The notes beneath the pieces were generated by a model. That model had not been told where the DNA came from. It was given only the letters and a program-made list of their open reading frames with translations, and ran no database searches. Shown piece by piece: positions 30,575 to 35,750 of a stretch of DNA of 35,750 bases (positions are counted from its first letter, which is position 1; each line of letters begins with the position of its first letter). The position numbers and the translations under genes were made by a program. Source of the DNA: Halieaceae bacterium (GTDB taxonomy: Bacteria > Pseudomonadota > Gammaproteobacteria > Pseudomonadales > Halieaceae); assembly GCA_029247075.1 (NCBI GenBank), contig JAQWLX010000055.1, forward strand, positions 1 through 35,750, given 5' to 3'.

Positions 30575-31630
30575 ATGTTTGAAGTGCTCACGAAATGGTA
30601 CCGGCGTTATTTATTTGATGAAGAATCGATCCTTTTGCTGATAATGCTTATCTTGGGGTTGGTTCTGTTAAATTATGTTGGAGATATACTCGCACCATTG
30701 CTGGTTTCAATAGTCTTGGCTTACTTAATGCAGGGTGTTGCAATTACTTTGCGAGATAAAGGCTTGGCGAACTGGATTGCTGTGACCTTTGCATTTTTTC
30801 TGTTTATGGGTGGTTTTTTAGGAAGCACGTTACTGCTATTGCCATTAGTGTGGCGTCAACTTAGCAGTCTTGTTAGAGAATTGCCAGGGATGTTAGATCG
30901 TGCTCGAGATTTTTTAAATGTGCTTCCGATAGAATATCCGACAGTGGTCAATACCGAGCAATTGAATAGTGTGATCGACTTGGCCAGACTAGAAATTGCT
31001 CAGTTCGGTCAAATCGTGATAACGAAGTCTCTCGCAGGACTACCAGGGTTGTTAACATTAGGAATTTATTTAATCTTAATTCCGATACTCGTATTCTTTC
31101 TTCTAAAAGATAGAGATGAAATTATTAGCTGGTTCGTTAGATTTTTACCAAGTGAGCGACCGCTTCTAAAGCGCATTTGGGCAGAAATGGATGACCAAAT
31201 GTCAAACTATGTGCGAGGCAAGGTCGTAGAAATAATTATTGTTGGAGGAATTAGCTACTTTTGCTTTGCCTGGTTGGGTTTGAGTTACGCAGCTCTTTTA
31301 GGGCTATTGGTCGGGCTTTCGGTAATTATTCCTTATATAGGGGCAATACTCGTTACCATTCCAGTTGCTGCTGTAGGATTTATTCAATGGGGATTATATG
31401 AATCTTTTTATTATGTAATGGTTGCTTACGTGGTTATCCAGGTACTGGATGGCAATGTCTTAGTGCCACTATTGTTTTCAGAAGCAGTTAATCTTCATCC
31501 AGTAGCCATTTTATTGGCGGTTATTTTCTTTGGTGGTATCTGGGGAGTGCCCGGAGTGTTCTTTGCCATTCCACTAGCGACTCTTGTCAAGGCTGTTATT
31601 AATGCATGGCCAGCACCCTCTGACGCTTAG
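30575..31630 (+). CDS. perM: AI-2E transporter/permease family protein (PerM-like)
   Basis: LAPLLVSIVLAYLMQGVAITLRDKG...GLSVIIPYIGAILVTIPVAAVGFIQWG; multiple TM segments. Confidence 0.9.
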   Translation: MFEVLTKWYRRYLFDEESILLLIMLILGLVLLNYVGDILAPLLVSIVLAYLMQGVAITLRDKGLANWIAVTFAFFLFMGGFLGSTLLLLPLVWRQLSSLVRELPGMLDRARDFLNVLPIEYPTVVNTEQLNSVIDLARLEIAQFGQIVITKSLAGLPGLLTLGIYLILIPILVFFLLKDRDEIISWFVRFLPSERPLLKRIWAEMDDQMSNYVRGKVVEIIIVGGISYFCFAWLGLSYAALLGLLVGLSVIIPYIGAILVTIPVAAVGFIQWGLYESFYYVMVAYVVIQVLDGNVLVPLLFSEAVNLHPVAILLAVIFFGGIWGVPGVFFAIPLATLVKAVINAWPAPSDA

Positions 31631-31637
31631 GTGGACT

Positions 31638-31668
31638 GCTATATAGTTCTAATATAGAACTATATAGC
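31638..31668. promoter_or_regulatory. Palindromic operator-like element 1 upstream of aceE
   Basis: GCTATATAGTTCTA-ATA-TAGAACTATATAGC, 14-bp perfect arms. Confidence 0.75.
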
Positions 31669-31727
31669 CAATCTTCCTGTCATGCCGTACAATAACCCAC
31701 GTCAGCGTTTCCTTTGACCACCATTAA

Positions 31728-31744
31728 AGTTCTATAATAGAACT
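31728..31744. promoter_or_regulatory. Palindromic operator-like element 2 upstream of aceE
   Basis: AGTTCTA-TAA-TAGAACT; same core as element 1, centres 83 bp apart; 1 bp before AGGAG of aceE. Confidence 0.75.
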
Positions 31745-31758
31745 AGGAGATTAGCAAC

Positions 31759-34425
31759 TTGCAGAACAACCGGACTGAGTCAGATTTGGATTTATTGGAA
31801 CTCAAAGAGTGGCTTGACGCATTGGATAGCGTAGTTCGAGAGAGTGGGCCTGGTAGAGCGCGTTGGATTATAGAAGAACTAGCTGGTCACTCCGCAAAAC
31901 TTGGTTTAGAGATCTCTTCATCTATTAATACCCCATTTAAAAATACAATTCGACCAGTTGATCAAAAATCTATGCCTGGTGATGTGTTTATGGAAAGGCG
32001 AATTCGTTCGTTAATGCGTTGGAATGCGCTCGCTATGGTAATGCGAGCAAATGATAATGATGATGCACTTGGCGGTCATATTTCCAGCTTTTCTTCCAGC
32101 GCAACTTTGTATGACGTTGGGTTTAATCACTTTTTCCGTGGCGCAGATGGTGAACATTTAGGAGACTTAATTTTCTTTCAAGGCCATAGTGCGCCGGGTA
32201 TTTATGCCAGATCTTTTCTAGAGGGACGCCTAACAGAATCTCAGCTTGACCACTTCCGACGAGAGGTTGGTGGTAATGGCTTATCATCTTACCCTCATCC
32301 ATGGTTATTACCAGACTATTGGCAATTTCCAACAGTCTCAATGGGTCTTGGTCCGATACAGGCAATCTACCAAGCTCATGTCATGAAATATCAGGCCAGT
32401 CGAAAGCTTGTCGATCATGGCGATCGAAATATCTGGTGTTTTCTTGGCGATGGGGAATGCGATGAACCGGAGTCACTTGGTGCTATCTCATTAGCCGGTC
32501 GAGAGCAGCTTGGGAATTTGCATTTTGTGGTGAATTGTAATCTCCAGAGGCTTGATGGTCCCGTAAGGGGAAATGGCAAGATCATTCAGGAGCTGGAGGG
32601 TATTTTCCGAGGAGCAGGCTGGGACGTAATCAAAGTAATATGGGGACGTTTGTGGGATCCGTTGCTCGAGCGTGATACGACTGGCTTGTTACAAAAGAGA
32701 ATGGATGAAGTATGTGATGGCGAATTACAAAACTACAAATTTAACGGTGGTACTTACACTAGAGAACACTTTTTTGGTAAATATCCCGAACTGCTAGAAC
32801 TCGTGTCGGATTTAAGTGATCAAGAGATCATGTACCTAAATAGAGGAGGGCATGATCCATTTAAGGTTTATGCCGCCTATGCTAAAGCAGTCGCGCAGAG
32901 ATCTAAACCAACAGTGATATTGGCGATGACCGTAAAAGGCTATGGAACGGGAGAGGTTGGAGAAGCGAGTAATGAGACACATTCGCTTAAAAAACTGGAT
33001 CTAAAAAGTCTGAAGTCGTTTAGAGATCGATTTGGGATACCGATATCTGATGATCAGCTAAAGTCTGTTCCCTATTATAAGCCTTCTGACGATAGTCCAG
33101 AAATTCGCTATTTGAAAAAGCGTCGGGAAGAATTGGGTGGATTTGTTCCAAAACGTCGCACAGATTCACCTTCTTTAGTCGCTCCGTCTCTAGAGTTTTT
33201 TTCTTCGCGACTTACTGGATCTGGCAAGAGAGAAATCAGCACTACAATGGTTCTAGTGCGATTACTAGCTGACTTGGTAAAGGACAAGTCTTTGGGTGAG
33301 CGTCTCGTGCCAATTGTGCCAGACGAAGCGCGGACTTTTGGCATGGAAGGCATGTTCAGGCAGTTAGGTATTTATTCTTCTGTTGGTCAGAAGTATACAC
33401 CTCACGATGCTGATCAGATTCTATATTATAAAGAAGGTCAAGATGGCCAGATTCTAGAAGAGGGAATCAACGAGGCAGGAGCATTCTCGGCCTGGCTAGC
33501 AGCGGCGACCTCTTACTCGGTCAGTAATTTTCCGATGATTCCCTTCTATATTTTCTACTCAATGTTTGGTTTTCAGAGAATTGGAGATCTTGCATGGGCT
33601 GCTGGTGACAGCCAAGCGCGCGGATTTTTAATTGGTGCAACTTCGGGACGCACCTCATTAAATGGAGAAGGTCTTCAGCATCAGGATGGACATAGCCATT
33701 TAATCGCCAGTACTATTCCTAATTGTATTGCATATGATCCAGCCTATGGGTATGAGCTTGCTGTAATAATTCAAGACGGCCTGCGGAGAATGCTAGAGCT
33801 TGGAGAAAACTGTTTTTATTACATAACCACTATGAACGAAAATTACCGTCAACCGGCACTACCTAATGGTTCAGAGGAAGGAATTATTAAAGGCCTTTAT
33901 CAGCTTCAACATTCTGGATTGAAAAGTGAATTGAAAGTTAGATTAGTAGGTTCCGGTAGTATCACGGAAGAAGTTAAAGAAGCAGCAAAAATCCTAGAGA
34001 CTGACTATGGAGTGGCTGCAGACGTTTGGAGTTTAACCAGTGTTGTGCAATTACAGAGAGATGGTAAAGAGGCGGTAAGGTGGAATCTCTTACATCCGTC
34101 TTCTGCGCCCAAAGTCCCTTATCTGACAGAATGTTTTGGTAATTCTGATACACCCGTAGTTATTGCCACGGATTATGTTAAGGCACATGCTGACCAGTTA
34201 AGAGAATTTATTCCAGCACCAGTTACCGTTTTAGGGACTGATGGTTTTGGTCGAAGTGATACCAGGGAGAAATTACGCCAGTTTTTCGAGATTAGTCGAG
34301 AATTTATTGTTTTGAGCTCACTTAAGCACCTATTAGATAAAAAACAGATTAAAGAAAATATTTTAACCGACGCAATTCAGAATTTAGGATTGGATTCGGA
34401 AAAACCAAATCCTCTATCCGTGTAA
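31759..34425 (+). CDS. aceE: Pyruvate dehydrogenase E1 component (homodimeric type)
   Basis: 888 aa; ARWIIEELAGHSAKLG, MRANDNDDALGGHISSFSSSATLYDVGFNHFF, FLGDGECDEPESLGAISLAGRE; TTG start with AGGAG. Confidence 0.97.
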   Translation: MQNNRTESDLDLLELKEWLDALDSVVRESGPGRARWIIEELAGHSAKLGLEISSSINTPFKNTIRPVDQKSMPGDVFMERRIRSLMRWNALAMVMRANDNDDALGGHISSFSSSATLYDVGFNHFFRGADGEHLGDLIFFQGHSAPGIYARSFLEGRLTESQLDHFRREVGGNGLSSYPHPWLLPDYWQFPTVSMGLGPIQAIYQAHVMKYQASRKLVDHGDRNIWCFLGDGECDEPESLGAISLAGREQLGNLHFVVNCNLQRLDGPVRGNGKIIQELEGIFRGAGWDVIKVIWGRLWDPLLERDTTGLLQKRMDEVCDGELQNYKFNGGTYTREHFFGKYPELLELVSDLSDQEIMYLNRGGHDPFKVYAAYAKAVAQRSKPTVILAMTVKGYGTGEVGEASNETHSLKKLDLKSLKSFRDRFGIPISDDQLKSVPYYKPSDDSPEIRYLKKRREELGGFVPKRRTDSPSLVAPSLEFFSSRLTGSGKREISTTMVLVRLLADLVKDKSLGERLVPIVPDEARTFGMEGMFRQLGIYSSVGQKYTPHDADQILYYKEGQDGQILEEGINEAGAFSAWLAAATSYSVSNFPMIPFYIFYSMFGFQRIGDLAWAAGDSQARGFLIGATSGRTSLNGEGLQHQDGHSHLIASTIPNCIAYDPAYGYELAVIIQDGLRRMLELGENCFYYITTMNENYRQPALPNGSEEGIIKGLYQLQHSGLKSELKVRLVGSGSITEEVKEAAKILETDYGVAADVWSLTSVVQLQRDGKEAVRWNLLHPSSAPKVPYLTECFGNSDTPVVIATDYVKAHADQLREFIPAPVTVLGTDGFGRSDTREKLRQFFEISREFIVLSSLKHLLDKKQIKENILTDAIQNLGLDSEKPNPLSV

Positions 34426-34458: not shown

Positions 34459-35750
34459 ATGAGCATAGTAACCCTAAAAGTTCCCGATATTGGGGGTGCC
34501 GAAGGCGCAGAAATCATTGAGCTTTTGGTTAATATCGGAGATGAGGTAGATGCTGGGCAGGGGTTGCTAGTTTTGGAGTCTGACAAAGCCTCAATGGAAA
34601 TTCCTGCAGAAGTGGCTGGTGTTATCAAGGAGATGTTTGTCTCTATTGGAGATCTGCTTTCTGAGGGTTCAAGAATAGCAGCCATAGAAAGCACTGAAAT
34701 GGATTCCAATAGTAATACAGAAAATGGGAATAGAGAAATATCTGAAGTTGGCTATTCAGAGAAGGATGAGAAAACTGAAATTTTCAATGATATAAATGTC
34801 CAAACGGTAGATACGGAACATTCCTCTGCGAAGGAGATGAATGGCAATGAAGACAAAGCTAGTTTTTTAGATGAGCAAGAAAAAGAAAACATAGTTTACG
34901 CAGGACCTGCTGTACGAAAATTGGCGCGTCAGTTTGGTATTGTTCTAGCTGAAATATCTGGTACAGGGCCAGGTGGGCGAATTGTCAAAGAAGATCTTCA
35001 TGGATTCGTAAAGAGAAACTTATCAACTACTGGGGCAGCTTCTACTTTATTAGAATATGCTGATATAGATTTTTCTAAGTGGGGAGAGGTTGAGCGAGTT
35101 ACGCGAAACAAAGTTGAAGTATTGACTGCTGAAAACATGCATCGTAGTTGGGCAAATGTACCGCATGTTACACAATTTGACGACGCAGATATAACAGACT
35201 TGGAAACGTTTCGTGCTGAACTAAAAGAAGAGTCTGAGCGCCGAAAAACTAAACTGACTTTAATGCCTTTTTTGTTGAAGGCATTGGCTGTACAACTTCG
35301 CGATTATCCAAATTTCAATGCTTCACTAACGGATTCAGGGAAAGTTTTAGTCAAAAAGCAATATATTAATATTGGAATGGCGGTCGATACACCGCATGGA
35401 CTTTTTGTTCCCGTCTTAAGGGACGTGGATCGCAAAACATTATGGGAGCTAGCACATGAAGTTGCCGAATTGGCTGCCAAAGCCCGAAATCGTGATTTGC
35501 GTCCTGATGACATGCAAGGTGGCTGTTTTACTATTTCAAGTCTAGGTAAGATAGGAGGTGGTGGTTTCACCCCAATTATCAATACGCCAGAGCTAGCGAT
35601 TCTCGGTGTGGGCAGGTCTGAAATTAGACCTGTTTGGGATGGATCGTCTTTTAATCCACATACGTTGCTCCCGATATCACTATCTTACGACCACAGGGCG
35701 ATAAATGGTGGTGAAGCAGGTCGTTTTTGCAGTGGTCTAGCCGCTATCAT
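34459..35750 (+). CDS. aceF: Pyruvate dehydrogenase E2 (dihydrolipoyl acetyltransferase), partial at window edge
   Basis: MSIVTLKVPDIGGAEGAEIIELLVNIGDEVDAGQGLLVLESDKASMEIPAE (lipoyl domain), AGPAVRKLARQFGI (binding domain), SLSYDHRAINGGEAGRF (catalytic DHR). Open to window end, so not in ORF track. Confidence 0.95.
   Translation, partial: MSIVTLKVPDIGGAEGAEIIELLVNIGDEVDAGQGLLVLESDKASMEIPAEVAGVIKEMFVSIGDLLSEGSRIAAIESTEMDSNSNTENGNREISEVGYSEKDEKTEIFNDINVQTVDTEHSSAKEMNGNEDKASFLDEQEKENIVYAGPAVRKLARQFGIVLAEISGTGPGGRIVKEDLHGFVKRNLSTTGAASTLLEYADIDFSKWGEVERVTRNKVEVLTAENMHRSWANVPHVTQFDDADITDLETFRAELKEESERRKTKLTLMPFLLKALAVQLRDYPNFNASLTDSGKVLVKKQYINIGMAVDTPHGLFVPVLRDVDRKTLWELAHEVAELAAKARNRDLRPDDMQGGCFTISSLGKIGGGGFTPIINTPELAILGVGRSEIRPVWDGSSFNPHTLLPISLSYDHRAINGGEAGRFCSGLAAI

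Follow-up and report, generated by a model that had tools for sequence, protein, structure and literature searches.

The locus considered here raises the question of which factor controls the pyruvate dehydrogenase operon in the Halieaceae. Pyruvate dehydrogenase is under the control of PdhR in E. coli and of RccR in Pseudomonas. The window (the whole stretch of 35,750 nucleotides that was analysed) derives from a Halieaceae bacterium whose genome is 70.8% complete and whose closest named relatives, judged by aceE, belong to the Halieaceae. Two palindromes lie upstream of aceE, the distal reading GCTATATAGTTCTA-ATA-TAGAACTATATAGC (31638-31668) and the proximal AGTTCTA-TAA-TAGAACT (31728-31744). 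Their positions, first given in a sequence-only reading, were confirmed on the sequence, with centres 83 bp apart. The features of the region are as follows.

30575..31630, + strand: gene for an AI-2E transporter family (PerM-like) protein, outside the system (ORF; Pfam PF01594)
31638..31668, strand not applicable: putative distal operator with extended 14-bp arms, 17-bp core at 31645-31661 (sequence and family conservation at aceE)
31665..31670, + strand: weak candidate for the -35 element, TAGCCA, sharing bases with the end of the extended distal palindrome (consensus scan alone)
31688..31693, + strand: predicted -10 element TACAAT, exactly 43 bp on from the start of the distal operator (consensus scan; conserved in the sister genome G002)
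31728..31744, strand not applicable: putative proximal operator, 17-bp core, adjoining the Shine-Dalgarno sequence (sequence and family conservation)
31745..31749, + strand: Shine-Dalgarno sequence AGGAG of aceE (sequence)
31759..34425, + strand: aceE (pyruvate dehydrogenase E1), TTG start (ORF; 70-76% identical to Halieaceae aceE)
34459..35750, + strand: beginning of aceF, the operon's second gene, cut off by the contig end (lipoyl-domain motif; aceE and then aceF also in relatives)

At up to two mismatches the 17-bp core was matched in the window by these two sites alone, against 0.22 matches expected from shuffling. No other exact copy occurs in the 2.14 Mb assembly (2,138,114 bases), across which a reversed-pattern control gave 0 matches; the sole other copy with one mismatch (C15:780) falls within coding sequence. 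In G002 the distal core differs by one base and the proximal operator is identical. The second palindrome abuts the Shine-Dalgarno sequence, as had been claimed, with AGGAG at 31745-31749 and the TTG start codon at 31759. An ORF check bore out the further claim that no regulator gene adjoins aceE in the window; among relatives none was found upstream of aceE and none was evident downstream. Several relatives (L012-L015, L030) have an M16-type peptidase gene separating the PerM-like gene from aceE, and the window's genome has no peptidase at that position (31630-31638). In Luminiphilus-type genomes the gene immediately before the aceE operators encodes an alpha-hydroxy-acid (lactate-type) dehydrogenase (L016:2409-3563, L152:234-1388). 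Many Halieaceae carry a second aceE-like gene, about 50-55% identical.

Relatives were searched for absence of the palindromes and for random genome-wide occurrence, the two outcomes that the sequence-only reading had named as contrary to it; the pair was found to be kept in most of the family and nearly confined to aceE. An exact-pattern search of 98 relatives matched nine genomes, in eight of which the matches were upstream of aceE. When one mismatch was allowed in 140 family members and many contexts were read, intergenic matches were at aceE and the others in coding sequence. A broad regulon was rejected, the other one-mismatch matches that were read being coding sequence or a tRNA-like stretch. 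aceE was located in 131 of the 140 genomes, upstream regions were taken from 110 of those, and a symmetric matrix was built from them (consensus WWRGTTCYAWWWTRGAACYWW). With this matrix, 87 of the 103 complete upstream regions were found to have exactly two sites, 4 to have a single one and 12 to have none, a count that is partly circular because the matrix was derived from the same upstream data. Dinucleotide-shuffled upstream regions gave 2 matches per 1200 at the matrix threshold and none at 12 bits. A stringent pattern applied to 40 genomes placed sites almost exclusively at aceE, with two exceptions. A stray site in G014 (C4), beside uncharacterised, mobile-element-like ORFs, was taken as chance. 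Judged from these genome comparisons, the palindromes are family-conserved DNA operators, almost specific to aceE.

Inverted repeats in a leader may also form RNA hairpins, acting here as a terminator of the upstream gene, as a riboswitch-like element or by sequestration of the Shine-Dalgarno sequence. Strong hairpins are predicted (fold z-score -3.3), and a weak candidate 'aceE' RNA motif was listed for gammaproteobacteria in 2010 (PMC2864571). This explanation is nevertheless very improbable, as no compensatory signal was seen and the half-sites change independently: Watson-Crick agreement between the halves was close to that expected under independence at each symmetric position (127 observed and 129.0 expected, 104 and 97.5, 92 and 102.7). 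An Rfam covariance-model search of the leader gave no match up to E 1. The distal repeat is not followed by a T-run (the sole terminator-like call is elsewhere) and sits before the predicted promoter, and the same palindrome is found in divergent promoters of HxlR genes. Since the half-sites vary independently, selection appears to hold each half-site near the consensus, as for a protein dimer, and not to maintain complementarity between the halves. Independent half-site conservation and the presence of the site in more than one promoter context are both as expected of a protein-binding operator.

The sequence-only reading had left the cognate factor unnamed; genome comparison now points to an HxlR-family protein as the most likely one. 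A search for HxlR (PF01638) genes was made because stray operator sites were found near HxlR, SDR and isomerase genes. One of two stray sites is upstream of a DsbA/2-hydroxychromene-2-carboxylate-isomerase-like gene, and in G009 an exact stray site is flanked on one side by an HxlR gene and on the other by an SDR gene, which is followed by a similar isomerase gene. Most of the family carries a member of a distinct HxlR orthologue group, to which the single HxlR protein of G002 also belongs (85.1 bits, against a Pfam PF01638 cut-off of 20.8). No HxlR match was obtained in the window's own assembly, which is 70.8% complete; its sister species G002 has the gene. Of 19 non-Halieaceae HxlR homologues (47-58% identity, from several families of the order), 18 have RGTTCYNNNNNRGAACY just upstream of their own gene, often as two copies 24-37 bp apart and usually facing an SDR and DsbA-like operon. 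Three Halieaceae genomes of genus g8 retain this layout: the HxlR gene has two sites of its own, 24 bp apart, and aceE is without operators. Genomes with aceE operators have an HxlR orthologue that shares the recognition-helix region. The HxlR tree unites the aceE-operator group (97/85), g21 among its members, and puts g8 outside, beside an outgroup sequence (a weakly supported join).

Among near-complete genomes, the orthologue and the aceE operator were both present in 61, the operator alone in 1, the orthologue alone in 4 and neither in 5 (Fisher p 5.5e-5, with related genomes counted as independent); at the genus level the co-occurrence gave p 0.005. The exceptions include G030 (97% complete), with aceE operators and an HxlR homologue of just 47%; G128 and G132 (estimated near-complete), with an aceE operator and no match to the orthologue; and G022, where the orthologue is present and neither aceE nor the regulator gene has a clear operator. 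Such genomes, in which one partner occurs without the other, and the fact that the HxlR gene adjoins aceE in none of the genomes examined, would agree with an unrelated factor at the operators and a coincidental association with HxlR. That explanation is unlikely in view of the presence and absence pattern of orthologue and operator, and it would hardly account for the 17-bp palindrome that recurs ahead of the HxlR gene in the three g8 genomes and in 18 of the 19 homologues from outside the family. The aceE sites therefore very probably bind an HxlR-family (PF01638) factor of this orthologue group, as judged by comparative genomics. In the loci L357-L375, L296, L297 and L300 the HxlR gene is mostly divergent from an operon of SDR and DsbA/HCCA-isomerase-like genes, with two operators 24-37 bp apart. 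Weak AGTT...AACT palindromes lie immediately ahead of a different HxlR paralogue (the MVKKSF group) in L317 (G007) and L318 (G021), hinting at related operators for that group.

The candidate factor exceeds the Pfam cut-off by a wide margin and is matched by solved structures of the HxlR/DUF24 family (including PA1607, 2f2e). Members of this family bind DNA as winged-helix dimers, and electrophile sensing is known among them, with formaldehyde as the signal (PMC7835342). Described members (B. subtilis HxlR, YodB) differ from the candidate in governing formaldehyde or quinone/redox responses, and the sensing Lys13 of B. subtilis HxlR is unmatched in it (CSVAR). An HxlR regulator of pyruvate dehydrogenase was not found in the literature searched, the coverage of which was partial, so that novelty is provisional.

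The known regulators of aceEF were compared in turn. PdhR (GntR family; Enterobacteria, Vibrio and Shewanella; PMC5343134) is likewise a dedicated aceEF regulator in several lineages. A PdhR regulon was rejected, because both window sites differ from the TTGGTNNNACCAA-type operator, in keeping with the earlier statement that the motif is not of the E. coli PdhR type; among aceE upstream regions, a PdhR-like pattern occurred in 1 of the 72 from outside the Halieaceae and in none of the operator-less ones from within the family. RccR of Pseudomonas fluorescens (RpiR family) represses aceEF and has two footprinted pseudo-palindromes per aceE promoter, with hypersensitive bands between the two sites that suggest bending (PMC5489143). 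The twin pseudo-palindromes at the aceE promoter resemble those in the window; RccR differs in its family, its operator (TGTAGT-N3-ACTACA), its response to KDPG and its larger regulon. An RccR/HexR (RpiR) operator was rejected for the window, where the half-sites are AGTTCTA/TAGAACT and not TGTAGT/ACTACA. RpiR genes were not detected in several operator-bearing near-complete genomes.

Outside the Halieaceae, TGTARTNNNAYTACA-type palindromes, frequently two of them, occur in 50 of 72 aceE upstream regions, and in P. fluorescens they are the footprinted RccR sites (PMC5489143); twin operators at aceE thus appear to extend beyond one family. Pairs of TGTARTNNNAYTACA in the non-Halieaceae loci L019-L091 are 52 bp apart in Pseudomonas and 71-73 bp apart in L044, L048, L049, L055 and L057. 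All five operator-less g24 genomes (5/5) keep a TGTARTNNNAYTACA-type site at aceE. Together with the similar twin-operator layout at Pseudomonas aceE for the unrelated RccR, these retained sites suggest a non-orthologous replacement of the regulator on a like layout. The replacement would not be clean: 18 operator-bearing Halieaceae also match a HexR/RccR-like or PdhR-like pattern when one mismatch is allowed, and many of these 18 still have RpiR genes. In the aceE tree most sampled operator-bearing genera form one clade (99/92), g20 and g24 are outside it, and the window's genus is at an unresolved deep fork. A fuller history, in which an HxlR regulator of SDR/DsbA-like neighbours was re-targeted to aceE as its single main task, with loss of its home operators, gain of a phased aceE pair and replacement of an RccR-like regulator whose twin-operator layout was retained, is about evenly balanced between being right and wrong.

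The second palindrome had also been read as overlapping a TATAAT-like sequence. The string is present (+ strand, 31733-31738), but its centre varies among relatives, and the conserved -10 element is instead TACAAT at 31688-31693, which places the promoter between the operators and not inside the second palindrome. Of 89 genomes, 69 have a TAnnnT motif at offset +42 to +44 relative to the distal operator, as do 14 of the 18 genera (mean 3.9 per offset), the -10 element being fixed at +43/44, and a second -10 element (TATACT) lies about 30 bp before the proximal site in several genera with long spacing. This fixed -10 position and the second TATACT indicate that the operators bracket one or two promoters. 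The spacing of the operators is 71-75 in g12 (83 in one genome), 83-84 in the window's genus, and 104-106, 113-116, 126 and 130-156 in the remaining genera. Genus-median spacings showed a 10.4-bp periodicity, clustering at whole helical turns with a mean phase close to 0 (R 0.65, p ~4e-4). The test treats genera as independent, which they are not, and the fit loosens at spacings of 138-156 bp, so the phasing is support and not proof. The loop by a dimeric repressor that had been called possible is thus suggested by the helical phasing. Two operators also bracket the promoter in the gal operon of E. coli, where a LacI-family repressor acts with HU. The window resembles it in the bracketed promoter and in operators about whole helical turns apart, a loop here being suggested by the spacing.

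The palindromes are likely operators for a dimeric HxlR-family factor that would control the aceEF operon. The distal operator would end just before the -35 region, the promoter would lie between the operators with a predicted transcription start at ~31699, and the proximal operator would occupy the short leader against the ribosome-binding site. One dimer per site, on the same helix face, could hold the promoter in a small loop; the likeliest action is that RNA polymerase would be blocked by the loop and aceEF repressed. Repression is favoured by the geometry and by the RccR parallel, and a loop of this type has roughly even chances. The N-terminal Cys is conserved among the HxlR orthologues and a C-terminal CxxC-type cluster is present in most, and release could follow from a signal sensed at either. 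By analogy, given the conserved Cys residues and the electrophile sensing of family members, the signal may reasonably be guessed, at a first approach, to be redox or electrophile in nature.

The main rival to loop-type repression is that the same HxlR factor activates from the distal site near the -35 element, with the proximal site serving as a road-block or autonomous brake and not as the foot of a loop. The distal operator is at a fixed distance from the -10 element and centred near -47, which would suit an activator; the distance from the proximal site to the start codon varies widely among relatives; and HxlR proteins can activate or repress, B. subtilis HxlR being annotated and described as an activator. 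Activation is rather doubtful, since the proximal operator is downstream of the predicted start, a repressor position, and since the phased spacing and the RccR repressor parallel at Pseudomonas aceE favour co-operative repression.

An abundant marine family appears to control pyruvate dehydrogenase through a third, unrelated protein family. The case would be an unusually clear one of transcription-factor replacement, the ancestral arrangement being seen in g8 and outgroups and the derived one in most other genera. An HxlR subfamily for which the literature searched describes no target also gains a testable operator; if the re-targeting is true, a family that senses electrophiles or redox state would be tied directly to the entry of carbon into the TCA cycle. 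No aceE relative was found on the viral contigs searched, and the bare TAGTTCTANNNTAGAACTA motif occurs on 18 viral contigs (L092-L109).
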